Assembly (NCBI RefSeq): GCF_016865365.1
Contig: NZ_AP024469.1
Coordinates: 3,998,501 to 4,062,500, forward strand
Source: Geobacter sp. SVR
GTDB taxonomy: Bacteria > Desulfobacterota > Desulfuromonadia > Geobacterales > Pseudopelobacteraceae
Length of the DNA stretch: 64,000 nt
Reading direction: 5' to 3'
The notes under the pieces are model-generated. The model did no database searches and had not been told where the DNA came from. It saw only the letters and a program-made list of their open reading frames with translations. The position numbers and the translations under genes were made by a program. Numbering within the stretch: position 1 is the first letter of the stretch; every line of letters starts with the position of its first letter. Below are positions 15,897-25,101 of the stretch, in pieces.

Positions 15897-16250
15897 ATGA
15901 AGAAAAAAGCGAGCCAGGCCATGACCAGGAATAGCGAAATACAACAACCCTTGCGGGATGAAATTACTTTACCCAAAGTCCTTCACGCACTCAGCGACCC
16001 CATACGCATGGAAATCGTGCTCAAAATTGCCAGAGCGGGTCAGGTTGCCTGTGGAGCATTCGATATACCGATGCCCAAGTCCACGTTATCGCATCACTTC
16101 AAAGTCCTGAGGGAATCGGGGGTAGTCGCCAGCAGGCGGGAGGGTAACGAGCTGATAAACTCTTTGCGGACTGAAGATCTGGAAGCACGCTTTCCGGGAG
16201 TCATTGCGGCCATAATTGCTGCAGGAACAGCTGACAAAGGAAAAGCCTGA
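15897..16250 (+). CDS. ArsR-family transcriptional regulator
   Basis: A winged-helix regulator of about 117 aa. The signature runs LHALSDPIRMEIVLKIARAG, then the recognition helix region PKSTLSHHFKVLRESGVVASRREGNE. This is the ArsR/SmtB pattern, in which a repressor leaves DNA on sensing a metal, redox signal or small molecule. Only one Cys (in QVACGAF) lies near the DNA-binding helices, and the usual metal-box CVC is absent, so the signal is unknown. Start choice is weak: ATG at 15897 or 15921 are both in frame, without clear Shine-Dalgarno sequences. Confidence 0.82.
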   Translation: MKKKASQAMTRNSEIQQPLRDEITLPKVLHALSDPIRMEIVLKIARAGQVACGAFDIPMPKSTLSHHFKVLRESGVVASRREGNELINSLRTEDLEARFPGVIAAIIAAGTADKGKA

Positions 16251-16338
16251 CTCCGGCAGTCTCTCGCCCGTCCCCCCGATGGAAGTCGCCCCAGAAATTA
16301 CGTTGCCAGGCTGCATTTCATACCATCGTTGCCAACAG

Positions 16339-16369
16339 AAAAGGCGTCCACATAAGCGAACGCCTTTTT
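16339..16369. terminator. Bidirectional intrinsic terminator
   Basis: AAAAGGCGT (16339-16347) pairs with ACGCCTTTT (16360-16368). The hairpin has an A-run on one side and a T-run on the other, so it can end both arsR (plus) and the hdr-flox operon (minus), whose stop is 87 bases away. Confidence 0.75.
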
Positions 16370-16455
16370 CACCCCCCAGCTAACGGGTTTATCCTTCCTT
16401 AGTGGCACCCCGAACGCCGCCCACACTCTTGGGCGCTAAGGCATGCTCACCCCAA

Positions 16456-17301
16456 TCAAAATTCTGCCGGCATGGCCTTGACCTGCTCCGCAGTGAAGAC
16501 CGGCCCATCCTTGCAGACATAGACATTGCCGACATTGCAGCGGCCGCACTTACCCAGGCCGCACTTCATGCGGTTCTCCAAGGTAGTGTAGACCTGTTCG
16601 TCCGTAAAGCCCAGCTTCTCCAGCACCGGCAGGGTGAACTTGATCATGATCGGCGGGCCGCAGACCAGGGCAATGGTGTTGTCGGCCGCAGGAGCAGCCT
16701 CTTCCAGGATGGCCGGGACAAAGCCGACCTTGCCATCCCACGCAGGGCCATTGCCCCCCGGATCGACCGTCTTGACCAGCCGCACGTCACCGCGCTTTTC
16801 CCACTCCTCCAATTCGCGTTTGTAGACCAGGTCCGCCTCCGTGCGGGCGCCGTAGACGATGGTGATCTCCCCGAATTTATCACGCAGATCAAGGCAGTTC
16901 CAGATCAAGGTCCTGAGCGGCGGCAAGGCGATGCCGCCGGCAACGAAGACCAGGTTCCTGCCATAGAAGTCTTCAATGGGAAAGGAGTTGCCGTACGGGC
17001 CGCGCACCCCCATGCTGTCGCCGACCTCCAGCCTGCGCAGGGCCTCGGTCACCCGGCCCACTGACCGGAAACAGCATTCGATGTAGCCCTTCCTGGTAGG
17101 AGAGGAAGCGATGCAGAAGGTGGACTCCCCGGCCCCGAAAGCGGAATATTCGGCGAACTGGCCAGCCCGGAAGACGAAGCTGTCACGGACCTGCTCATCC
17201 TGAAAAACCAGGCGCAGGGTACGGACATCCGGGGTCTCGTCGATGACCTCCTCGACAGTGGCCAAGTAAGGGAGATAGATGTTCTTGTTATGATCGCACA
17301 T
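16456..17301 (-). CDS. floxA: FAD/NAD(P)-binding oxidoreductase subunit, FloxA-like
   Basis: This 281-aa protein has a ferredoxin-reductase fold like PyrK and sulfhydrogenase gamma. A FAD-binding barrel (about 10-105, RAGQFAEYSAFG) precedes an NAD(P)-binding half (about 115-225, FVAGGIALPPLRTLI and VCGPPIMI). A C-terminal cysteine cluster CGLGKCGRCNVGNVYVC ligates a [2Fe-2S]. In sulfate reducers FloxABCD passes NADH electrons to HdrABC, with proposed flavin-based electron bifurcation to ferredoxin and a disulfide. Here it is the last gene of the operon, downstream of a hairpin that abuts its GAGG ribosome-binding site. Confidence 0.82.
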   Translation of the reverse strand: MCDHNKNIYLPYLATVEEVIDETPDVRTLRLVFQDEQVRDSFVFRAGQFAEYSAFGAGESTFCIASSPTRKGYIECCFRSVGRVTEALRRLEVGDSMGVRGPYGNSFPIEDFYGRNLVFVAGGIALPPLRTLIWNCLDLRDKFGEITIVYGARTEADLVYKRELEEWEKRGDVRLVKTVDPGGNGPAWDGKVGFVPAILEEAAPAADNTIALVCGPPIMIKFTLPVLEKLGFTDEQVYTTLENRMKCGLGKCGRCNVGNVYVCKDGPVFTAEQVKAMPAEF

Positions 17302-17368
17302 GTAAACCTCAGGTTAAGGTTAAGGCCAAGGTTAAGCTTTTACTCAACCCTAACCTCAAGCTGCTTTT
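17302..17368 (-). repeat. Spacer hairpin H1 (GGTTAAG family)
   Basis: GGTTAAGGTTAAG (17312-17324) and CTCAACCCTAACC (17343-17355) are inverted copies. In the operon's own transcript all 13 positions pair, two as G-U. The ribosome-binding GAGG of floxA (17310-17307) starts one base beyond the stem. The 12-mer CCTCAGGTTAAG (17307-17318) recurs exactly in the next spacer. Confidence 0.75.
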
Positions 17369-17737
17369 CTACTGCTCAATCAGTTTTGCCGCCAGCTCTC
17401 GAAACGCCGGGGCCTTGACTTTCAATTCGACCGCCCGGTTGTTGTCCCCGAATCCGATGGTGATCACGCCCCCCACCAGTTCATGCTCCATTTCGGCAAA
17501 CAGCACAGCCCGGGGATTCACCAGCAGGTTGCCGGACTGCACGAAACCGCGGGACAGCAACTCCTGGATGAAGGCTTCCTGATCGGCCTTGGCAACCTTC
17601 TTGAAAAGCTGCTTTCTGACCACAGTAGCGCCGAACCAGACATCCATCATGCGGGTAGTGTCCGATACCAGCGGATTGTCTTCCGGGGTGGTCATCTGGG
17701 CCGCCACCACCAGCTCTCTATTGATGAACCGTTCCAT
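17369..17737 (-). CDS. Unknown 122-aa protein inside the hdr-flox operon
   Basis: I do not recognise this family. The protein is soluble, has no cysteine and no membrane segment, so it binds no iron-sulfur cluster. It starts MERFINRELVVAAQ, continues with a helical middle (QLFKKVAKADQEAFIQELLS) and ends with a strand-rich part (VGGVITIGFGDNNRAVELKV) before a C-terminal helix. Its position between floxB and floxA, on the same strand with only short spacers, suggests an assembly factor or small accessory subunit of the Flox complex; that is inference. GAGG lies six bases before its ATG, inside spacer element H2. Confidence 0.7.
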   Translation of the reverse strand: MERFINRELVVAAQMTTPEDNPLVSDTTRMMDVWFGATVVRKQLFKKVAKADQEAFIQELLSRGFVQSGNLLVNPRAVLFAEMEHELVGGVITIGFGDNNRAVELKVKAPAFRELAAKLIEQ

Positions 17738-17799
17738 GTGACACCTCAGGTTAAGATTGAGCTTGAGGTCAAGGAACTGCTTTATTCAACCTTGGCCTC
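17738..17799 (-). repeat. Spacer hairpin H2 (GGTTAAG family), overlaps floxB 3' end
   Basis: GAGGTCAAGG (17765-17774) is inverted at CCTTGGCCTC (17790-17799) with one mismatch. The second arm lies inside the last codons of floxB, so the repeat forms part of the coding end. The exact 12-mer CCTCAGGTTAAG (17744-17755) shared with H1 carries the ribosome-binding site of the 122-aa gene. Confidence 0.65.
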
Positions 17800-18792
17800 A
17801 ACCTGCTGTAATATCGCTGCAATGTCGATCCCCACCGGACAGAGCCGGATGCATCTGCCGCAGCCGGTGCAGAGCGTCTGGCCGAACTTGTCATCATAAT
17901 ACTTGAACTTGTGCATGATACGGTTGCGGTAGCGCTTGGGCTGCTGGTCGCGGGGATTATGGCCCGAGGCGTGGTGGGTGAATTTCCAGAAACCGCAGGC
18001 ATCCCAGTTTTTGCGGCGCTTGCCCTTCTTCTCGGTTCCCTCGTCCACGATATCGAAGCAGTGGCAGGCCGGGCAGACAAAGGCACAGGCCCCGCACCCC
18101 ACGCAGCGGGTGGCGATGGTATCCCAGGATGGATCTTCGAAGTGCTCGTCCAGCCACTGCTTGACCTTTTTCAGATCGAACGCGTCAGTCTGGGGCTCGG
18201 CCAGGGGCAGTGCTTTGGCGCCGTTGGGCTCAGCGAACAGCTCATGGTGGGCGCCGACCAGCGTTTCTCCTTTCTCGCTGAAGGCTTCGCAGGCATATCC
18301 GCCCCCCTCCAGCGGGGTCAGAAACAGGTCGGCCCCTTTGGGATCGCCGGGGGAGAGTCCCACTGCCGAGCAGAAGCAGGCATCATCCGCTTGTGTACAG
18401 GCCAGTCCAATGATGGTGGTCTTCCTGCGGCGCTCCAGGAAGAATTCATCCTTATAGTCCCAGGAAAAGACTGTATCCAATACCGGGATGGCTGCGGCAT
18501 CGCAGGGGCGCACCCCCACCAGCACCGTTTCCGGAAAACGGACCGGATCGATATCCTGCAGTTCGACCCTTTGTCCCTCCTTCTCGTAGGACATGATGTC
18601 CTCGCACAGAGGAAAGAAGGCCTCCTTGCCGGAGCGGCGCGGCAATCGGTCAATGACCAGTTCAGCAGCGCTGGCGAGCGGCTCGTAGAGCGGCGTGCCG
18701 GCGTTCAGGCGAGGTGCCACCACTCGTTTGCCTTCGGCGATCAGCTTATCCAGGAGGGCGTTCAGGTTCTGTTCCGAGATGTATTTCTGCAT
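17782..18792 (-). CDS. floxB: 4Fe-4S electron-transfer subunit, FloxB-like (sulfhydrogenase beta-like)
   Basis: About 336 aa, resembling the beta subunit of sulfhydrogenase and the A subunit of anaerobic sulfite reductase. The N-terminal part holds GVRPCDAAAIPVLD and a CTQADDACFC cysteine group. The C-terminal third has two ferredoxin motifs, CVGCGACAFVCP and CTGCGRCIRLCP, binding two [4Fe-4S]. I start it at the ATG at 18792 (MQKYISEQNLN). The frame stays open 29 codons upstream, but those codons are the right end of an inverted-repeat spacer. It would relay electrons between FloxA flavin and FloxC/HdrA. Confidence 0.8.
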   Translation of the reverse strand: MQKYISEQNLNALLDKLIAEGKRVVAPRLNAGTPLYEPLASAAELVIDRLPRRSGKEAFFPLCEDIMSYEKEGQRVELQDIDPVRFPETVLVGVRPCDAAAIPVLDTVFSWDYKDEFFLERRRKTTIIGLACTQADDACFCSAVGLSPGDPKGADLFLTPLEGGGYACEAFSEKGETLVGAHHELFAEPNGAKALPLAEPQTDAFDLKKVKQWLDEHFEDPSWDTIATRCVGCGACAFVCPACHCFDIVDEGTEKKGKRRKNWDACGFWKFTHHASGHNPRDQQPKRYRNRIMHKFKYYDDKFGQTLCTGCGRCIRLCPVGIDIAAILQQVEAKVE

Positions 18793-18957
18793 GTATAAAA
18801 CCTTTTTTTCACCACAGAGGATACGGAGGAAAGGCGGAGGAGAGACAAAATCAAAAACTAAAGATTCGGGGTTAAACAAAAAACAATGCTTTTGCTTTTC
18901 CTCGGTTTTTCTCCGTGTACCTTCGTGTTCTCCGTGGTGAATGCTTTTAATCGGTTC
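18793..18957 (-). repeat. Spacer hairpin H3 (CACAGAG family)
   Basis: TTCACCACAGAGGATACGGAGG (arm at 18808-18829, given here only to its ends TTCACCAC...GGAGG) is inverted at 18920-18941. The arms agree at 18 of 22 positions, and all four differences are transitions. About 90 bases of AT-rich loop lie between. The element fills almost the entire spacer between floxC and floxB. Confidence 0.8.
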
Positions 18958-19878
18958 CTATTTGATAAACGACTGATCATCCTTTTCAGTGAACGTCGCC
19001 AGCGGCCCCTTCTCGTTGACCTCGAAGCCCGCCTCGTGGTCGAACAGTTCCTTCAGTTCCTTGGCCATCTTGCGGTTCAGGAGGTTGAGCGGGATGTCCA
19101 TGGGGCAGACCCGTTCGCACTCGGCACAGCCGGCGCAGCGCCCGGCCAGGTGCATGGCCCGGACGATGTGCCAGGCAACATTACCGGCCGGCCGGGGGGT
19201 GCTCTCCACCATTTGCGGCTTGTTGCGGTCACACAGGCATTGCTCGCAGAAGCAGAACGGGCAGACCTGACGGCAGGCGTAGCATTTGATACATTTGGAA
19301 GACTGTTCCTTCCAATAGCTCCAGCGTTCGGCCGGGGTCAATGCCTCCAGCCGGGCGATCTCCGCCGCGTACTTTTTCTCCAGCTCGGGAGTTACCGGCT
19401 TCTGGGCCGGTACGTAATCGCAGCCTGCAGGCAGGTGAGCATCGCATTCCCGGCATTTGGGGGCGATGCTCTCGGAGGTCAGCTCCGTGTCGGGCTGCAC
19501 CACCGAGGCCAGCACGCCGACGCAGGGAACACCAATCAGATAGAGCCGTTCGCGGGTCAGTTGCGATTCGCCCATCAAGCCCACCAGGGCTTTCAGGTCG
19601 CATCCCTTGACCACGACGCCGATCCTGCCTGCCTTGGGGACCTCTTTCTTGGCCTTAGTCAGGTAGACAGCCAGATTGTTGACGCAGGCAGGGGTAAAGA
19701 TCAGTTTCGCCGCATCCTCGATTCTGGATACGACGATCGGCTGAGCCGAACCTCTTCTGCGGGCGGCGGTATAGCCGATAACCGCGCTGACGGTGCCATC
19801 GGAGAGTATGCGGGACGCCTCGTTTCTGATAGCGTCGGTAACAGCGGCGTAGAGAGATGTGTCGATTGCCTGGGTCAT
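18958..19878 (-). CDS. floxC: 4Fe-4S protein with F420-hydrogenase beta-like N-terminus, FloxC-like
   Basis: About 306 aa. The N-terminal half (VIGYTAAR, FTPACVNNLAVYL, GVVVKGCDLKALVGL, VGVPCVGVLA) resembles the FrhB/FdhB family that binds flavin and clusters. The second half has many cysteines, including CIKCYACRQVCPFCFCEQC and a final CAGCAECERVCP ferredoxin motif. It likely carries several [4Fe-4S] clusters and bridges FloxB to the HdrA/MvhD module. The ATG at 19878 has AAAGG eight bases upstream; a 19-codon in-frame extension reaches into the upstream repeat and is probably not translated. Confidence 0.78.
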   Translation of the reverse strand: MTQAIDTSLYAAVTDAIRNEASRILSDGTVSAVIGYTAARRRGSAQPIVVSRIEDAAKLIFTPACVNNLAVYLTKAKKEVPKAGRIGVVVKGCDLKALVGLMGESQLTRERLYLIGVPCVGVLASVVQPDTELTSESIAPKCRECDAHLPAGCDYVPAQKPVTPELEKKYAAEIARLEALTPAERWSYWKEQSSKCIKCYACRQVCPFCFCEQCLCDRNKPQMVESTPRPAGNVAWHIVRAMHLAGRCAGCAECERVCPMDIPLNLLNRKMAKELKELFDHEAGFEVNEKGPLATFTEKDDQSFIK

Positions 19879-20062
19879 GAAAGAACCTTTATAGTCGAAA
19901 GCATCGTTATAAAATCCATCATGGTAATGGAACACGGATGACGCGGATTTAATGGTTTACGCGAATTTGGAGATTGGGGATGAACCTGAGATCTCCGGTT
20001 TTGGCGTATCCGCGCTAATCCGTCCAAATCCGGGTCTTTTCCGCGTTCCATTGTCTTTTATT
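19879..20062 (-). repeat. Spacer hairpin H4 (GGAACACGGA family)
   Basis: ATGGAACACGGA (19927-19938) is inverted at TCCGCGTTCCAT (20040-20051), 11 of 12 matching. Shorter imperfect matches between (GCGGATTTAA against CTAATCCG, GGAGAT against ATCTCC) make a long, irregular hairpin that fills the spacer between floxD and floxC. Confidence 0.75.
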
Positions 20063-20563
20063 TTAAATTTGTTTGAATGCCTCTTTCAGCTCCGGCGAAG
20101 CAAGAGCACCGGACCACTGTTCCTCCAGGGCCAGTTCCTTGAACTCACGCATCGGCCCCATGGCCCGCACCCGCTCGGTCAGGTCGGTGACAACCTCGAC
20201 CCATTTGCCCCCTTCGGCAGCCGAGACCCAGGAGAACTGCAGACGATCGAGATGAACCCCCACGAACTCCAGCAGCTTGCGGAAGGCGGCGAAGCGGCGT
20301 CGGGCGTGGAAGTTGCCGGCGATGTAGTGACAATCGCCAGGATGGCAACCCGAAACCAGCACCCCGTCGGCCCCCTGCTGGAAAGCCTTGAGAATGAAGA
20401 CGGGATCGATGCGGCCGGTGCAGGGAAACTTGAGCACCCGCACGTTGGCCGGGTACTGCATGCGCGAGGTCCCGGCCAGGTCGGCCCCGGCATAGGTGCA
20501 CCAGGTGCAGACAAAGGCGATTATCTTCGGTTCGAAGTCGTGTTTCTGCTTTTCAGCGTGCAT
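20063..20563 (-). CDS. floxD: MvhD-family hydrogenase iron-sulfur subunit, FloxD-like
   Basis: This 166-aa protein is of the MvhD/HdrD-delta family, which carries a [2Fe-2S] cluster and links HdrA to its electron donor. Cysteines appear as FVCTWCTY near residue 19, KFPCTGR near 48, and GCHPGDCHY near 72, the family pattern. In methanogens MvhD connects the hydrogenase to HdrA. Here, next to hdrA and the flavin oxidoreductase genes, it would take electrons from FloxABC instead. The ATG is preceded by AAAGG. It is separated from hdrA by hairpin spacer H5. Confidence 0.85.
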   Translation of the reverse strand: MHAEKQKHDFEPKIIAFVCTWCTYAGADLAGTSRMQYPANVRVLKFPCTGRIDPVFILKAFQQGADGVLVSGCHPGDCHYIAGNFHARRRFAAFRKLLEFVGVHLDRLQFSWVSAAEGGKWVEVVTDLTERVRAMGPMREFKELALEEQWSGALASPELKEAFKQI

Positions 20564-20693
20564 TGGAAAACCTTTGAAAGCGGATTGAAAGCATGGAACA
20601 CGGAAAAATCGGAAAAGGCAGATAAAAACGGATCTTACTTCTGTTTAATCTGATGTTATCTGAAGTTTCCGCTTGTACCGTGTTCTATAGTGA
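20564..20693 (-). repeat. Spacer hairpin H5 (GGAACACGGA family)
   Basis: ATGGAACACGG (20593-20603) is inverted at CCGTGTTCTAT (20678-20688), 10 of 11 matching. An inner pair, CAGATAA (20619-20625) and TTATCTG (20656-20662), is perfect. The spacer between hdrA and floxD consists of little else. Confidence 0.8.
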
Positions 20694-22691
20694 TTATAAC
20701 GCCTCTATCATTGCCACGATCTGTTCATCGGTGTACCCATCAAGCTCCACCGACTTGGACGGGCAGGTGGCCTGGCAGGTACCGCAGCCGCCGCAGACTC
20801 CGGGGTTGACGTAGGCCACCACCTTGACCAGGTTGCCCTGGCGGTCGCGCATCTCCTTCTCCTCCACCGCGCCGTAAGGGCAAACCTTTTTGCAGTAAAA
20901 GCAGCCCACGCAGCCGGCATCCTTCACCTTTGCAACCACCGGTTCCCGCTCCAGCTTGTCCTTGGCAAACAGGGTCATCACCTTGGCGGCGGCGGCACTG
21001 GCCTGGCTGACGGTGTCGGGGATGTCCTTGGGCCCCTGGCAGGCGCCGGCCAGGTAGATGCCGGCCGTGGCGCATTCAACCGGCCTCAGCTTGGCGTGGG
21101 CTTCGGAGTAGAAGTTGTATTTGTCGTAGGAGATGCCCAGTTTCTGGGCCAGCAACTCCGCGCCGGCCTGGGGCTGGACAGCCGTGGCCAGCACAACCAT
21201 GTCGGCCTCGATCTCCACTTGGACACCGACCGAAATGTCGCTACCCATGACCACGATCTTGTCATCTTTCTGATAGAGGCGCGAGACCATGCCGCGGATG
21301 TAGACCGCCTCCTCTTCCTCGATGGAGCGGCGCCAGAATTCGTCGTAGTTCTTGCCCGGCGTACGGGCATCCATGAAGAAGACATAGGCCTGGCCATCGT
21401 GGACCTTGTGGTGGTAGAGCATGGTATGCTTGGCAGTGTACATGCAGCAGATCTTGGAACAGTAGGAAATCCCTTTTTCCCTGGCCCTGCTGCCGACGCA
21501 CTGGATGAAGACGATTTGTTTCGGTTCCTTGCCGTCCGAAGGGCGCAGGATCTTGCCACCAGTGGGGCCGGAAGCCGATGCCAGGCGCTCGAAGGTCATA
21601 CCGTCGATGACATCCGGCAGCTTGCCGTGGCCGAATTCGCCGTAGCCCTTGATGGGGGAGCCCTTGGGTTTCTCGGCGATGGAGTAGAGGTCAAAGCCGG
21701 TGGCAACCACAATGGCGCCGACCGGTTCCACGATCAGCTGGTCTTCCTGCTCGTAGTCAACGGCGCCGGGGCCGCACACCTTCTGGCACAGGCCGCATTT
21801 ACCGGTCCTGAATTTGGTGCAGTGTTCCCGGTCGATGACCGGGGTATTGGGTACCGCCTGGGGAAAGGGGACGTAGATGGCCGGGCGCATCCCCCGATTG
21901 CAATCGAATTTGTTGGGGATCTTTTTGATGGGACACTTTTCCATGCAGACGCCGCAGCCGGTGCACCTGTCCTCATCCACCGAACGGGCCTTCTTGCGGA
22001 CCGTGACCTGAAAGTTACCGATATACCCCTCGACATGTTCTATTTCGGCGTAGGTGTAGAGCTTGATCTTGGGGTGGTTGGCGACATCGACCATTTTGGG
22101 GGTCATGATGCATTGGGAGCAGTCGAGGGTGGGAAACGTTTCGGAAAGTTGGGCCATGTGGCCGCCGATGGAGGGTTCCCGCTCCACCAGCACGACCTCG
22201 TGGCCCGCATCGGCAATGTCCAGGGCGGCCTGAATACCGGCGATGCCGCCGCCGATGACCAGCGAGCGCTTGGTGACCGGTACGGTGATGGTGGGCAGCA
22301 CGCGGTTCTTCTTGACCCGCTCCACCATCATGCCGACAATCTCGATAGCCTTTTCCGTGGCCTCCTGCTTGTCTTCGTGGACCCAGGAGCAGTGTTCGCG
22401 GATATTTGCCATTTCGCACAGAAAGGGGTTCAGGCCGGCCGCCTCCACTGCCTTGCGGAAGGTTTTCTCGTGCATTCGGGGAGAGCAGGCCGCCACCACC
22501 ACGTGGGAAAGCCGCTGCTCCTGGATGGCCCGCTTCAGCAGGGTCTGGCCGGGATCGGAGCACATGTACTTGTAGTCCGTCGAAAAGGCCACCCCCGGAA
22601 GCATTCCGACCTGGGCAGCCACCCGCTCCACATCCACCGTCCTCGATATGTTTTCGCCGCAGTGACAGACAAATACGCCGATTCTTGACAT
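20694..22691 (-). CDS. hdrA: Heterodisulfide reductase subunit A homologue
   Basis: This 665-aa FAD and iron-sulfur protein is the likely electron hub, and in methanogens the bifurcating flavin, of Hdr complexes. It has the N-terminal VFVCHCGENIS and a central FAD site with GGGIAGIQAALDIAD (about 145). Conserved CSQC cysteines follow (about 193-196). Ferredoxin motifs are CTGCGVCMEKCP (about 243) and, at the C-terminus, CVGCFYCKKVCP and CGGCGTCQATCP. No in-frame TGA suggests selenocysteine. Organisms without coenzyme M use such proteins with other thiols or carriers, so the disulfide substrate is unknown. Confidence 0.93.
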   Translation of the reverse strand: MSRIGVFVCHCGENISRTVDVERVAAQVGMLPGVAFSTDYKYMCSDPGQTLLKRAIQEQRLSHVVVAACSPRMHEKTFRKAVEAAGLNPFLCEMANIREHCSWVHEDKQEATEKAIEIVGMMVERVKKNRVLPTITVPVTKRSLVIGGGIAGIQAALDIADAGHEVVLVEREPSIGGHMAQLSETFPTLDCSQCIMTPKMVDVANHPKIKLYTYAEIEHVEGYIGNFQVTVRKKARSVDEDRCTGCGVCMEKCPIKKIPNKFDCNRGMRPAIYVPFPQAVPNTPVIDREHCTKFRTGKCGLCQKVCGPGAVDYEQEDQLIVEPVGAIVVATGFDLYSIAEKPKGSPIKGYGEFGHGKLPDVIDGMTFERLASASGPTGGKILRPSDGKEPKQIVFIQCVGSRAREKGISYCSKICCMYTAKHTMLYHHKVHDGQAYVFFMDARTPGKNYDEFWRRSIEEEEAVYIRGMVSRLYQKDDKIVVMGSDISVGVQVEIEADMVVLATAVQPQAGAELLAQKLGISYDKYNFYSEAHAKLRPVECATAGIYLAGACQGPKDIPDTVSQASAAAAKVMTLFAKDKLEREPVVAKVKDAGCVGCFYCKKVCPYGAVEEKEMRDRQGNLVKVVAYVNPGVCGGCGTCQATCPSKSVELDGYTDEQIVAMIEAL

Positions 22692-22825
22692 CTATTTATT
22701 CCTTTTCGTCACAGAGGTCACAGAGAAAAACCAGAGTCTTTTGAAACATAATCCTTTGGGGGTTAAATCCGAGCCTTGACCCATTGCATTTTTGAATTCC
22801 TCTGTGCTCTCTGTGTCCTCTGTGG
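22692..22825 (-). repeat. Spacer hairpin H6 (CACAGAG family)
   Basis: A 17-base arm at 22710-22726 (CACAGAGGTCACAGAGA) is inverted at 22808-22824 with 16 of 17 matching. The right arm ends two bases before the stop codon of hdrB. The same family as H3, between hdrB and hdrA. Confidence 0.85.
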
Positions 22826-23710
22826 CTACAGCAGTTGTTTTTCCTTCAGCAACGGCAGGGGATTGACGATCAACGCGTCCAGGCCCAGTTTTTCGGCCGG
22901 CAAGCCGGCTGCCAGCCCCACCAGCTGGGTCAGATAGAAGACCGGCAGACCGTAGCTGGTCTTGTAGACCCCTTCGATCTCTTTCTGACGGATATCGAGA
23001 TTGCCGTGACAGAGGGGGCAGCCGACCATGATGCAATCGGCGCCGGCCGCCTTGGCCGATTCGAGGATGGCATTGCTGAGCTGGATCACCACGCCGGGGC
23101 GCGAGAGGGTGAAATTGGCGCCACAGCACTCCAGGCGATGGGTCCAGGCAACACTTTCCGCGCCCGTCGCTTCGATCACCCGCTCCATGATGGTCGGGGC
23201 CTCGGTGCAATCCAGGTTGGGCACTTCTGGGGGGCGGGTCAGGAGACAGCCGTAGTAGCAGGCCACCTTGAGCCCCTTGAGCGGTTTTTTGATCGACCGG
23301 GCCAGTTGCTCCAGCCCCAGGTCTTTTGCCAGGATCTCCAGCAGGTGCTTGACCTGCCCATCCAGTCTGACCGGCGCATCGATGGCCTTTTCCACCTGTT
23401 TGCGCTTGGTGTCGCTCTCTTCCAGGGTATGCTGAGTGAACTTGAGCCGCGAAAAGCAGGCGGCGCAGGCCACGGCCAGATCCCCCTCGACCTGCTCGGC
23501 CAGTTCCAGGTTTTTGGCGCACAGCGAGAGCGAGAGCAGTTCATCCACATTGTGGGCCGGAGTGGCGCCGCAGCAGAACCAGTCCGGCACCTCGGTCAGG
23601 CCGATGTTCAGTGCCTTGAACAGCTCACGGGTGGAAAGATCGTACTCGCCGGCCGAGGCATGCAGCGAACAGCCGGGGTAGTAGGCGTAGGAGAGTTTTG
23701 AATCAGTCAT
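22826..23710 (-). CDS. hdrB: Heterodisulfide reductase subunit B homologue
   Basis: This 294-aa protein has the two CCG (cysteine-rich) domains of HdrB, which bind non-cubane [4Fe-4S] clusters where disulfides are cleaved. The first begins YYPGCSLHASA and continues to WFCCGATPAHN. The second has ACYYGCLL, then HRLECCGANFTL, and ends MVGCPLCHGNLD. All CCG cysteines are present, so catalysis on a disulfide or related acceptor is plausible. It lies between hdrC and hdrA in one minus-strand operon. Confidence 0.93.
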   Translation of the reverse strand: MTDSKLSYAYYPGCSLHASAGEYDLSTRELFKALNIGLTEVPDWFCCGATPAHNVDELLSLSLCAKNLELAEQVEGDLAVACAACFSRLKFTQHTLEESDTKRKQVEKAIDAPVRLDGQVKHLLEILAKDLGLEQLARSIKKPLKGLKVACYYGCLLTRPPEVPNLDCTEAPTIMERVIEATGAESVAWTHRLECCGANFTLSRPGVVIQLSNAILESAKAAGADCIMVGCPLCHGNLDIRQKEIEGVYKTSYGLPVFYLTQLVGLAAGLPAEKLGLDALIVNPLPLLKEKQLL

Positions 23711-23871
23711 TGGTCACCATCAAACCAAAATCGATTATGGAACACGGAAAAATCGGTACCAGCGGATAAAGGCGGAAAGAGTAGGTTTAAATAAAAGCGC
23801 ATTTAAGACTTTATCCGGATTTATCCGTCTTTTCCGCCGGTACCGCGCTCTATTGCCCTTAAATTTACTCT
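23711..23871 (-). repeat. Spacer hairpin H7 (GGAACACGGA family)
   Basis: ATGGAACACGG (23737-23747) faces CCGCGCTCTAT (23843-23853), 8 of 11 matching. CGGTACC (23754-23760) pairs perfectly with GGTACCG (23839-23845). The stem then continues with GCGGATAAAGGCGGA-like sequence on one side and its near-complement on the other, with bulges. Confidence 0.75.
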
Positions 23872-24456
23872 TTACAGCGCTTCGCCTTTTTTCCGCATCT
23901 CTTCGATCCGGGTGAAGATCTTTTCGATCTCATGCATGTTTTTGTTTTTGCTGTGGAACATCTTCAGCTTGCCCTTGCTGAGCAGCTTGGGGCCGAGCAT
24001 CAAATCTTTCAGAAATTGCCCGCTCTTGACGTTAAAAACAGCGGCCAGGCGCATCTCGTACTGCCTGCCATAGGCACGGATGTTCTGCAGAAACAGTTTG
24101 TTGGCCAACTGGACGTAGCTCTCCTTGGAGGGGCCTTCCGCATCCCATGACAGCTTGCGCAGGGCGTCCATGATCGATGCCAGGTGCACCTTGTTGGGGC
24201 AGCGGGTCGAACAGGTTTCGCAGGAGGCGCAGTACCAGATCGAACGTCCTGCCAGGATACGCTGCCACTGGCCCAGCTGCAGAAGCCGCATCACCCGGTT
24301 GGGGGGATGCTCCATGAAGGTGGCCATCGGGCAGCCGGCCGAACATTTGCCGCACTGGAAACAGCGGCGCACCGAGGTGCCGGACAAGGCCTCGACCTTG
24401 CGGACGAAGTCAAGATCCATCGTCTCGGTAGAGATGATCATCTTTTTCTTTTTCAC
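23872..24456 (-). CDS. hdrC: Heterodisulfide reductase subunit C homologue
   Basis: This 194-aa protein has two [4Fe-4S] ferredoxin motifs, CFQCGKCSAGCP near residue 34 and CASCETCSTRCP near 77. It passes electrons from HdrA to the CCG clusters of HdrB. The C-terminal helical tail is rich in Lys. It is the first gene of the eight-gene operon and starts with GTG after AAAAGGTGCTCCA. The order hdrC-hdrB-hdrA-floxD-floxC-floxB-unknown-floxA is the reverse block order of the flox-hdr loci I know from sulfate reducers. Confidence 0.92.
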   Translation of the reverse strand: MKKKKMIISTETMDLDFVRKVEALSGTSVRRCFQCGKCSAGCPMATFMEHPPNRVMRLLQLGQWQRILAGRSIWYCASCETCSTRCPNKVHLASIMDALRKLSWDAEGPSKESYVQLANKLFLQNIRAYGRQYEMRLAAVFNVKSGQFLKDLMLGPKLLSKGKLKMFHSKNKNMHEIEKIFTRIEEMRKKGEAL

Positions 24457-24570
24457 TGGAGCACCTTTTTACTAAGACTAAAACAAAGGCATGGCCCGCC
24501 TTATTATCGGACGGGTGATCGGGTGAGGAGTCACCGGTCGCAAGTAGCGCGGTTATACTACTGAGGTTTA

Positions 24571-24599
24571 AGTATATTTTTTACACAACGGGACTTGAA
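24571..24599 (-). promoter_or_regulatory. Candidate promoter of the hdr-flox operon
   Basis: On the minus strand TTCAAG (24599-24594) and TATACT (24576-24571) are 17 bases apart, about 110 bases upstream of the hdrC start. The region 24457-24720 is AT-rich and otherwise empty. A second, weaker pair lies further upstream near 24655-24685. Confidence 0.4.
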
Positions 24600-24732
24600 A
24601 AAGCAAGTTAAAAAGCCGCCATAGGGGCTTTCTCGATTTAGTTAAAATGAATTTGTATACTTTTTCAGGTTTCTGAAACAAGCAAGATGACGTTTGTTTG
24701 ATGCAGGAGACTGGTGGTGTAGACGCACTCGA

Positions 24733-25101
24733 TCATGCCCCCTTGATCACCGCTTCGATCTTCTCGACAATGGTAAGAGGATCGATAGGCTTTTCGAAAT
24801 AGCCATTGCAGCCGGCCGATAAAATTCTTTCCATATCGCCGGCCATGGCATAGGCAGTGATTGCAATGATCGGCAGGCCGGCGCCGGCCGAGGCCTTCCT
24901 GACGCGCCTGGCAGCTTCCAACCCGTCTATTCCGGGCAGGTTGATATCGATAATCACAACATCGGGATGTTCTGCCAGCGCCAGATGTACCCCCTCTTCG
25001 CCTGTTTCGGCCGCGATCACCTCATACTCGGCGCGTTTCAGCGCATAGATCATAAGCCGGATGCTATCCCTGTTGTCCTCGATGATCAGGGCTTTTTTCA
25101 T
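24733..25101 (-). CDS. Single-domain response regulator (CheY-like)
   Basis: This 122-aa protein is only a receiver domain. It has acidic residues at the start (LIIEDNRDS), the phosphoacceptor Asp in VVIIDINLPG near residue 52, Thr in AITAYA and Lys in FEKPIDP. With no output domain it works as a phosphorelay intermediate or binds a partner. It overlaps the end of the upstream histidine kinase gene by four bases (ATGA) and follows GAGGATCGT, so it is probably the kinase's direct partner. Confidence 0.9.
   Translation of the reverse strand: MKKALIIEDNRDSIRLMIYALKRAEYEVIAAETGEEGVHLALAEHPDVVIIDINLPGIDGLEAARRVRKASAGAGLPIIAITAYAMAGDMERILSAGCNGYFEKPIDPLTIVEKIEAVIKGA

Follow-up and report, generated by a model that had tools for sequence, protein, structure and literature searches.

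In the 64,000-nt stretch of Geobacter sp. SVR DNA analyzed here (hereafter the window), an operon of eight genes, hdrC to flxA, contains seven spacers, H1 to H7, whose inverted repeats belong to three families (A, B and C). Our analysis points, with a probability of about 0.73, to these spacers being gene-less (non-autonomous) derivatives of iterated-arm mobile elements, whose mobility we infer. The evidence comprises the iterated arrays themselves, their multicopy state, the existence of coding relatives, agreement between protein clade and arm sequence, sense orientation, reuse of junctions and the presence of empty junctions, all of which are direct observations.

In the model we favor, an element would have two inverted arms, each an array of a short iterated unit, and coding members would carry a single small gene in the loop or between hairpins. 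For families B and C this gene would encode a GxxExxY PD-(D/E)XK nuclease and for family A, less firmly, an S23/23S-IVP four-helix bundle. The encoded protein would recognize its own arms and help to copy or insert the element, whether coding or gene-less. The insertions that survive best would be those that fall after a stop codon and before the following ribosome-binding site, along the direction of transcription, and spread within a genome would give each genome its own arm dialect. As to why this operon is a hot spot, tolerance of loosened gene coupling is our first guess and target preference our second.

Three repeat families in one operon

The operon and its seven spacers are as follows.

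16456..24456, minus strand: host operon hdrC-hdrB-hdrA-flxD-flxC-flxB-g122-flxA, Hdr/Flx electron-transfer proteins by Pfam domains
17302..17368, minus strand: H1, g122-flxA spacer, 67 nt; family A (GGTTAAG units); detected arms 17311-17324 and 17343-17356
17738..17811, minus strand: H2, flxB-g122 spacer (17738-17781, 44 nt) plus the flxB coding end; family A
18793..18957, minus strand: H3, flxC-flxB spacer, 165 nt; family B (CACRGAG units); arms 18808-18829 and 18920-18941; loop motif TTTAACCCC in sense
19879..20062, minus strand: H4, flxD-flxC spacer, 184 nt; family C (GGAACRCGG/CGGAT units); arms 19926-19966 and 20008-20052
20564..20693, minus strand: H5, hdrA-flxD spacer, 130 nt; family C; arms 20593-20633 and 20648-20688
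22692..22825, minus strand: H6, hdrB-hdrA spacer, 134 nt; family B; arms 22710-22726 and 22808-22824; loop motif TTTAACCCC in sense
23711..23871, minus strand: H7, hdrC-hdrB spacer, 161 nt; family C; detected arms 23754-23776 and 23824-23845; outer end ATGGAACACGG at 23737

The repeated units are GGTTAAG in family A, CACAGAG-type in family B and GGAACACGG/CGGAT in family C. With a score of 2 for a match, -3 for a mismatch and -5 for a gap, the inverted repeats of H1 to H7 reach 18, 20, 24, 27, 32, 29 and 29. Among 100 dinucleotide shuffles of each spacer with 30 nt on either side, none attains the observed score for H3 to H7, two do for H2 and six for H1. A sequence-only reading of this stretch had placed an inverted repeat in every spacer; this holds for H3 to H7, where the repeats are strong, and for H1, where folding makes it clear, and is only half right for H2, which has one arm (17760-17774) in the spacer and the other (17790-17804) within the flxB coding end. 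That reading had also named shuffled spacers of equal folding stability as grounds for doubt. H1 (z -4.1, 60 shuffles) and H3 to H6 (z -3.3 to -4.1) fold better than their shuffles, H7 does so weakly (z -1.5), and for H2 the spacer by itself does not fold (z 0.3). The sequences it saw as common to several spacers are indeed common: CCTCAGGTTAAG occurs exactly twice in the window (17307 and 17744, in H1 and H2) and ATGGAACACGG exactly three times (19927, 20593 and 23737, in H4, H5 and H7), and the two detected arms of H6 agree at 16 of 17 positions.

The families extend over the whole genome (G000; 4,717,360 bases in a single contig), where each of the three is present in dozens of copies. BLAST gives 35 matches for family C, a figure that includes the query's own site and counts some elements twice. 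The 17 sites checked outside the operon are all intergenic, and 16 of them lie between co-directional genes. The pattern CACRGAGRNCACRGAG, with one mismatch allowed, has 97 genome matches compared with 5 for the reversed pattern, and GGTTAAGGTTAAGG, with two mismatches allowed, has 156 compared with 39. The earlier description of three multicopy palindromic intergenic families, concentrated in this operon, is supported, and the arms do occur elsewhere in the genome.

As for the host genes, the operon matches FlpD, CCG, Fer4, NAD_binding_1 and DHODB_Fe-S_bind in Pfam, where g122 has no match, and we take the hdr and flx names from domain content and order. Genes were called with a home-made heuristic that uses codon log-odds, with the hdrA start placed manually. 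The H6 element begins immediately 3' of the hdrB stop codon, and on our reading of the sequence the outer end of H1 provides the GAGGT ahead of the flxA start. The flxB C-terminus QQVEAKVE (window 17782-17811) is apparently built of family A repeat; orthologue ends differ. Rfam gave five sub-threshold matches in 16000-25000, none within a spacer, and none above the gathering score; a search of the PDB by sequence returned no match.

Coding relatives and their arms

By sequence comparison, families B and C flank genes for GxxExxY proteins, and family A resembles, less firmly, the arms that flank one S23/23S-IVP clade. S23 is the product of a gene within 23S rRNA intervening sequences, stem-loops that RNase III cuts out (PMC4990558). 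Homologues of flxA, some of them merely distant paralogues, are present in 70 of 77 genomes of the order, and we read 40 stretches around close homologues (41 loci with the window). Four of the 40 (L021, L059, L029 and L060) have one hdr-flox junction with a 470-487-nt version of the element whose loop encodes a GxxExxY protein. By coordinates, a PF13366 match also lies about 60 bases or less upstream of flxA in G051, G056 (in two pieces) and G011 (partial). At 1e-10, PF13366 is matched in 46 of 57 genomes, and the window's genome has no match at that threshold.

At Geobacterales GxxExxY loci the two flanks are inverted copies of each other: 26 of 30 score at least 24 and 19 of 30 at least 34, a value that no best-of-six shuffle reaches. 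At nine of 30 loci, at least one of the two flanks itself contains a hairpin. At L102 the GxxExxY gene sits among complete family C hairpins, two before it and one after, instead of in one loop; the first two of these hairpins carry a repeated piece of the upstream gene's end. Across many phyla of bacteria and archaea, in a sample made of the best 80 of at least 588 matched stretches (L113 and L144 were dropped for short flanks), flanks score at least 30 in 53 of 78 GxxExxY loci, as against 0 of 78 shuffles and 0 of 134 neighboring open reading frames. S23/23S-IVP genes reach the same score in 18 of 27 loci (0 of 27 shuffles), with arm units of period about 6-8 by eye. Three of the 30 S23 loci were dropped (L195 for a short flank, L209 and L212 for want of a frame), and L193, whose frame is wrong, was scored as a miss.

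The GxxExxY protein is TIGR04256/PF13366 (PDDEXK_3), a multicopy family whose NCBIfam entry holds a name only. Its structure is predicted with a predicted local distance difference test value (pLDDT) of 97.3, and the closest structural match is Cas4 SSO0001 (Z 9.9, root-mean-square deviation 4.3 over 100). The next matches, the Hjc resolvase and other Cas4 proteins, lie at 6-7 and may reflect a common arrangement. In Foldseek the best hit, at E 2.9e-3, is lambda exonuclease, with none below 1e-3; Foldseek and VIA-align report a common fold only, and families missing from their match lists may also share it. A D, an E-x-K, a Q and a Y are invariant in nine diverse GxxExxY sequences, and we take the D...ExK and Q..Y residues to be the RecB/Cas4 motif. 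The predicted structure and these residues place GxxExxY among putative PD-(D/E)XK nucleases with a Cas4/lambda-exonuclease-like fold. The open-access literature searched yielded no function for this family and no link of GxxExxY to flanking arrays; one paper mentions a GxxExxY gene beside a reverse transcriptase.

Protein and arm distances agree. For GxxExxY, distances between proteins correlate with 5-mer distances between arms at r 0.543 (26 Geobacterales loci, 0 of 5000 permutations), and among 22 S23 loci the correlation is r 0.26 (1 of 5000 permutations at k=5, 6 of 5000 at k=4). The S23 figure comes from loci readable by our frame pattern, which missed L194, L210 (flank score 77) and the second S23 gene of the window's own genome. 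Compared with GxxExxY arms, the window arms of H7, H3, H5 and H6 score 58, 50, 48 and 47, where best-of-8 shuffles go up to 25. The nearest arm for family C is that of L090, which H7 matches at 58 over 39 nt, H5 at 48 and H4 at 28 (best of 8 shuffles 24 each); for family B, the best shuffles reach 25 for H3 and 24 for H6. Among coding-element arms, H1 comes closest to those of the S23/IVP locus L206, at 31 (21 for the best of 8 shuffles).

We then picked homologues by protein alone from the GFLEKVYENAL clade of GxxExxY (family C) and the SFKDMPVWQ clade of S23 (family A). In the former, arms score at least 24 in 26 of 30 loci (1 of 30 shuffles), and 22 of these 26 hold the family C motif; without the previously seen L090 and L102, 24 of 28 new loci reach 24 and 20 of 24 have the motif. 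In the latter, all seven readable loci, three of them seen before, have GGTARAG, GATWAAG or GGTTAAG arms with scores of 23-48, one of the eight loci having given no frame. The window's genome contains two other S23 genes, and neither the family C GxxExxY clade (0 matches at 1e-25) nor a family-A-clade S23 gene was detected in it. Because no cognate GxxExxY gene was detected there, the window's B and C copies can only be orphans, in a genome that would have lost the cognate nuclease or never had it.

These genes bear directly on another proposal, made for G. metallireducens, that such arrays are binding sites of IHF/HU or another global regulator. The anatomy is alike: in their available descriptions (PMC2700814, PMC2996986), G. 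metallireducens classes 1-4 and G. bemidjiensis sequences are intergenic, occur in tens of copies and pair tandem short-unit arrays on opposite strands, with 3-5 units and a variable distance in classes 1 and 2 (PMC2700814). One of these, class 2, has the consensus TCTCCGTS[Y], and TCTCCGTS resembles family B on the other strand (PMC2700814). However, binding sites do not account for the presence of genes between the arms, for the match of protein clades to arm sequences or for the change of units between genomes, and PMC2700814 itself names no binding protein. We consider this explanation very improbable. Our comparison with these published sequences, presented as regulator sites or left unexplained, is by description, and the available descriptions mention no protein-coding version, operon hot spot or arm dialects.

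The coding relatives also argue against REP/REPIN-type elements moved by a RAYT (PF01797) transposase. The window elements are intergenic, multicopy and palindromic, as such elements would be, and the genome has 17 PF01797 matches, three of them in longer frames. Nevertheless, no A, B or C arms surround the three longer genes, to which this check was confined, the other 14 matches being IS200-like copies: the flanks of L035 and L036 have nothing above shuffle level, and L037 has another 20-nt repeat. In place of such a transposase gene, the coding relatives of families A, B and C have an S23 or a GxxExxY gene, and we give this reading almost no credence. REPIN/RAYT remains a useful parallel, in that non-autonomous intergenic palindromes are paired with a single-gene element; it differs in that here the protein would have a nuclease fold or a four-helix bundle and is not a HUH (Y1) transposase, with units of roughly 6-10 nt.

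L037 itself (G000:C1:3952000-3956000) has a 295-aa frame with a Y1 transposase domain and a perfect 20-nt inverted repeat, GGGGTCAGGTCTTGAAATAT, unrelated to families A-C. Outside the window, at G000:C1:208616-236763, five equally scoring IS200-like genes are spaced about 6,945-6,949 bases apart, which suggests tandem amplification of a 6.95-kb unit.

Density, orthologous junctions and orientation

The window has 36 other co-directional junctions, and none of the 19 that are scorable (30-600 nt) reaches 18, compared with 18-32 in the seven of hdr-flox; the earlier remark that spacers elsewhere in the window lack such repeats is borne out. For a genome background we used 243 co-directional junctions (152 scorable) from 19 of 20 sampled 20-kb stretches, L219 having been removed from the count because the gene caller failed there (0.10 coding). 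A score of at least 18 is found in 57 of 243 sampled junctions (25 after one shuffle) and in 7 of 7 in hdr-flox, and a score of at least 24 in 23 of 243 (13 with a loop of at least 10; 0 after one shuffle) compared with 5 of 7. The longest run of consecutive junctions at 18 or more is three in the sample and seven in hdr-flox.

The enrichment is order-wide. At the 41 loci, 105 of 241 hdr-flox junctions score at least 24 (3 after one shuffle). In the 21 genomes with both operons read, strong inverted repeats occupy 58 of 134 hdr-flox junctions and 1 of 271 nuo junctions (Fisher p 2e-31); gaps above 600 nt were skipped and gaps below 20 nt scored 0, and 20 of the 40 fetched genomes were paired with a nuo operon. 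The hdr-flox operon is therefore special relative to nuo, the sole operon compared. The sequence-only reading had noted that the window's nuo operon lacks such repeats and had singled out the filling of every hdr-flox junction by three families; both points stand relative to nuo and to the sampled genome background, which is far lower. In G. bemidjiensis, according to PMC2996986, multicopy sequences are found in 12% of intergenic regions.

That reading had also suggested a comparison of orthologous operons for occupied and empty spacers, and both are seen. The hdrB-hdrA junction is 0-1 nt in L021, L027, L028, L034, L057 and L063, and elsewhere other families fill it, so that the same junction holds different families across relatives.

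The genes carried between arms lie in the same direction as their co-directional neighbors in 23 loci vs 1, 47 vs 7 and 15 vs 0 in three sets. Neighbors here are the longest open frames, three of the first set (30 loci) are hdr-flox loci, and L193, L195, L209 and L212 of the 30 were omitted from the S23 set. The gene-less elements are oriented as well: the loop motif TT[TA]ACCC occurs in sense in 16, in antisense in 1 and uninformatively in 34 of 51 family-B-like spacers, which are partly orthologous and hence not all independent.

Sense orientation, the position of elements between stop codon and ribosome-binding site and the enrichment in one operon across the order (58 of 134 junctions, as against 1 of 271 in nuo) would also fit hairpins that are cis-acting RNA, kept by selection to set hdr-flox subunit ratios or mRNA stability. 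The sequence-only reading had taken the G-U pairs of H1 as a hint of this kind, and H1 does fold better in sense (-27.3 vs -13.4). The hint is nevertheless not supported by the wider set. Of 99 spacers, 51 have the more stable fold in sense and 48 in antisense, arm mismatches are G-U in the transcript in 110 cases and in the opposite strand in 91 (binomial p 0.20), and the counts in coding loci are 20 vs 21. In the window, antisense is the more stable strand in 5 of 7 spacers. Several relatives have empty junctions, different families fill the same junction in different genomes, and arrays of this type are also found beside genes of unrelated loci across many phyla. We regard cis-acting RNA as an unlikely explanation and dropped transcript-selected hairpins on the unbiased stability and G-U counts. 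A purine asymmetry of the loop (49 of 51) was discarded as evidence because an inverted repeat shows the asymmetry on both strands. We read the sense orientation as co-transcription or tolerance rather than as selected RNA structure.

Signs of spread and relation to known systems

Arms are more alike within a genome than at one junction across genera. Arm 5-mer sharing is 0.120 between different junctions of the same genome and 0.052 between genera at a given junction, a difference that none of 1000 label shuffles reaches. Likewise, coding arms are nearer to their own genome's operon elements than to those of others (15 of 10000 permutations). This comparison used 11 genomes, each with a single coding locus, after exclusion of 3 of 14 mapped genomes, which are without an operon element. 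In G024, the 5' arms of the coding locus L102 and of the non-coding flxD-flxC element are identical at 43 of 44 bases and their 3' arms at 37 of 41, in the same orientation. The L102 junction is filled in G024 and, by eye, is a gap of about 9 and about 4 nt in G007 and G019 of the same genus, the adjoining genes being 66-67% identical among these genomes.

This resemblance between loci speaks against formation in place, by replication slippage and strand switching with the associated genes as passengers. Tandem amplification around elements in L061 and L102 and the differing unit number between orthologues fit such a process. However, the 43 of 44 arm bases common to two loci of one genome, the agreement of protein and arm distances, the genome dialects and the 97 matches vs 5 for the reversed pattern do not, and we hold slippage to be highly improbable.

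Several results weigh against the mobile-element reading and should be set beside it. The threshold of 24 is also reached by 3 of 30 best-of-six shuffles of Geobacterales GxxExxY flanks, the best-80 sample is skewed to one protein clade, and 25 of 78 GxxExxY and 9 of 27 S23 coding loci miss their flank threshold. The arms of L090, to which H4, H5 and H7 come closest among coding loci, match each other only at shuffle level (24 vs 25). The putative link of family A is the weakest part of the explanation: H2 scores 26 against S23/IVP arms, its best shuffle also 26 and thus not above chance, and GGTTAAG itself occurs in just L206 (= L262) of the seven clade loci, the rest having GGTARAG or GATWAAG. 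Just 11 genomes were usable for coding and non-coding arms, with a same-genome score of 23 or less in 4 of 11 and the coding copy in the same operon in 3 of 11. No target-site duplication was found from the filled and empty junctions, which are too diverged to read, no transposition intermediate was found and no element was caught moving. The window copies are never near-identical in pairs, unlike a recent burst.

Mobile elements of a conventional kind offer a partial comparison. Like miniature inverted-repeat transposable elements (MITEs), the window elements are short, multicopy and gene-less, with terminal inverted repeats. Empty sites do exist, and no transposase was found that would mark a MITE-type parent. 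The 23S rRNA intervening sequences also have an inverted-repeat stem with an S23 gene in the loop (PMC4990558), and that protein family is the one proposed for the family A coding version. They are located within rRNA helices, from which RNase III cuts them out, whereas the window copies lie in mRNA spacers between protein genes (PMC4990558 for the rRNA side). Unlike the intervening sequences, the window arms are built of iterated units and the copies are gene-less.

Whether these elements form an undescribed class of prokaryotic mobile element is, in our estimate, an even bet. In such a class the GxxExxY nuclease, or convergently S23, would recognize co-evolving iterated arms and spread coding and gene-less copies sense-wise into inter-cistronic gaps in many phyla and archaea, TIGR04256/PF13366 would be the coding version of families B and C, and the 23S rRNA intervening sequences would be an rRNA-dwelling branch. 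This would give TIGR04256/PF13366 and stand-alone S23/IVP proteins a testable role, and it suggests where intergenic repeats of the CACAGAG and CGGAT types come from. The pile-up of insertions in hdr-flox across the order, with nuo nearly clean, may serve as a natural system for loosened operon gene spacing, and sense orientation without an RNA-stability bias helps to separate mobile DNA from regulatory RNA, two ideas that are easily mixed.

The orthologous operons also contain other sequences. A TAGGGGCG...CGCCCCTAC-like family is found at hdrB-hdrA of L015, L018, L061, L068 and L071, at flxC-flxB of L061 and L071, and at flxD-flxC of L072 and L074; at several of the hdrB-hdrA junctions its outer end includes TAG, the stop codon of hdrB. 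AGGTTGTTGAAAAACGGGCATCTCGCCGC-like arms form a separate inverted-repeat family in L216, L217, L227, L233 and L034, and a GGCGTAGCGCTGCTACGCC-like center recurs in several orthologue junctions (within the set L017, L021, L034, L062, L065 and L066); both resemble a 24-copy family of G. metallireducens. In place of a repeat element, hdrB-hdrA of L022, L029, L031, L033, L056, L060 and L066 holds about 410-475 bases that look, by eye, like a small receiver-domain gene with a LIVEDDE-type start. Finally, the hdrA-flxD junction of L061 shows a tandem triplication of a block in which the element lies together with the 3' end of hdrA and the 5' end of flxD.

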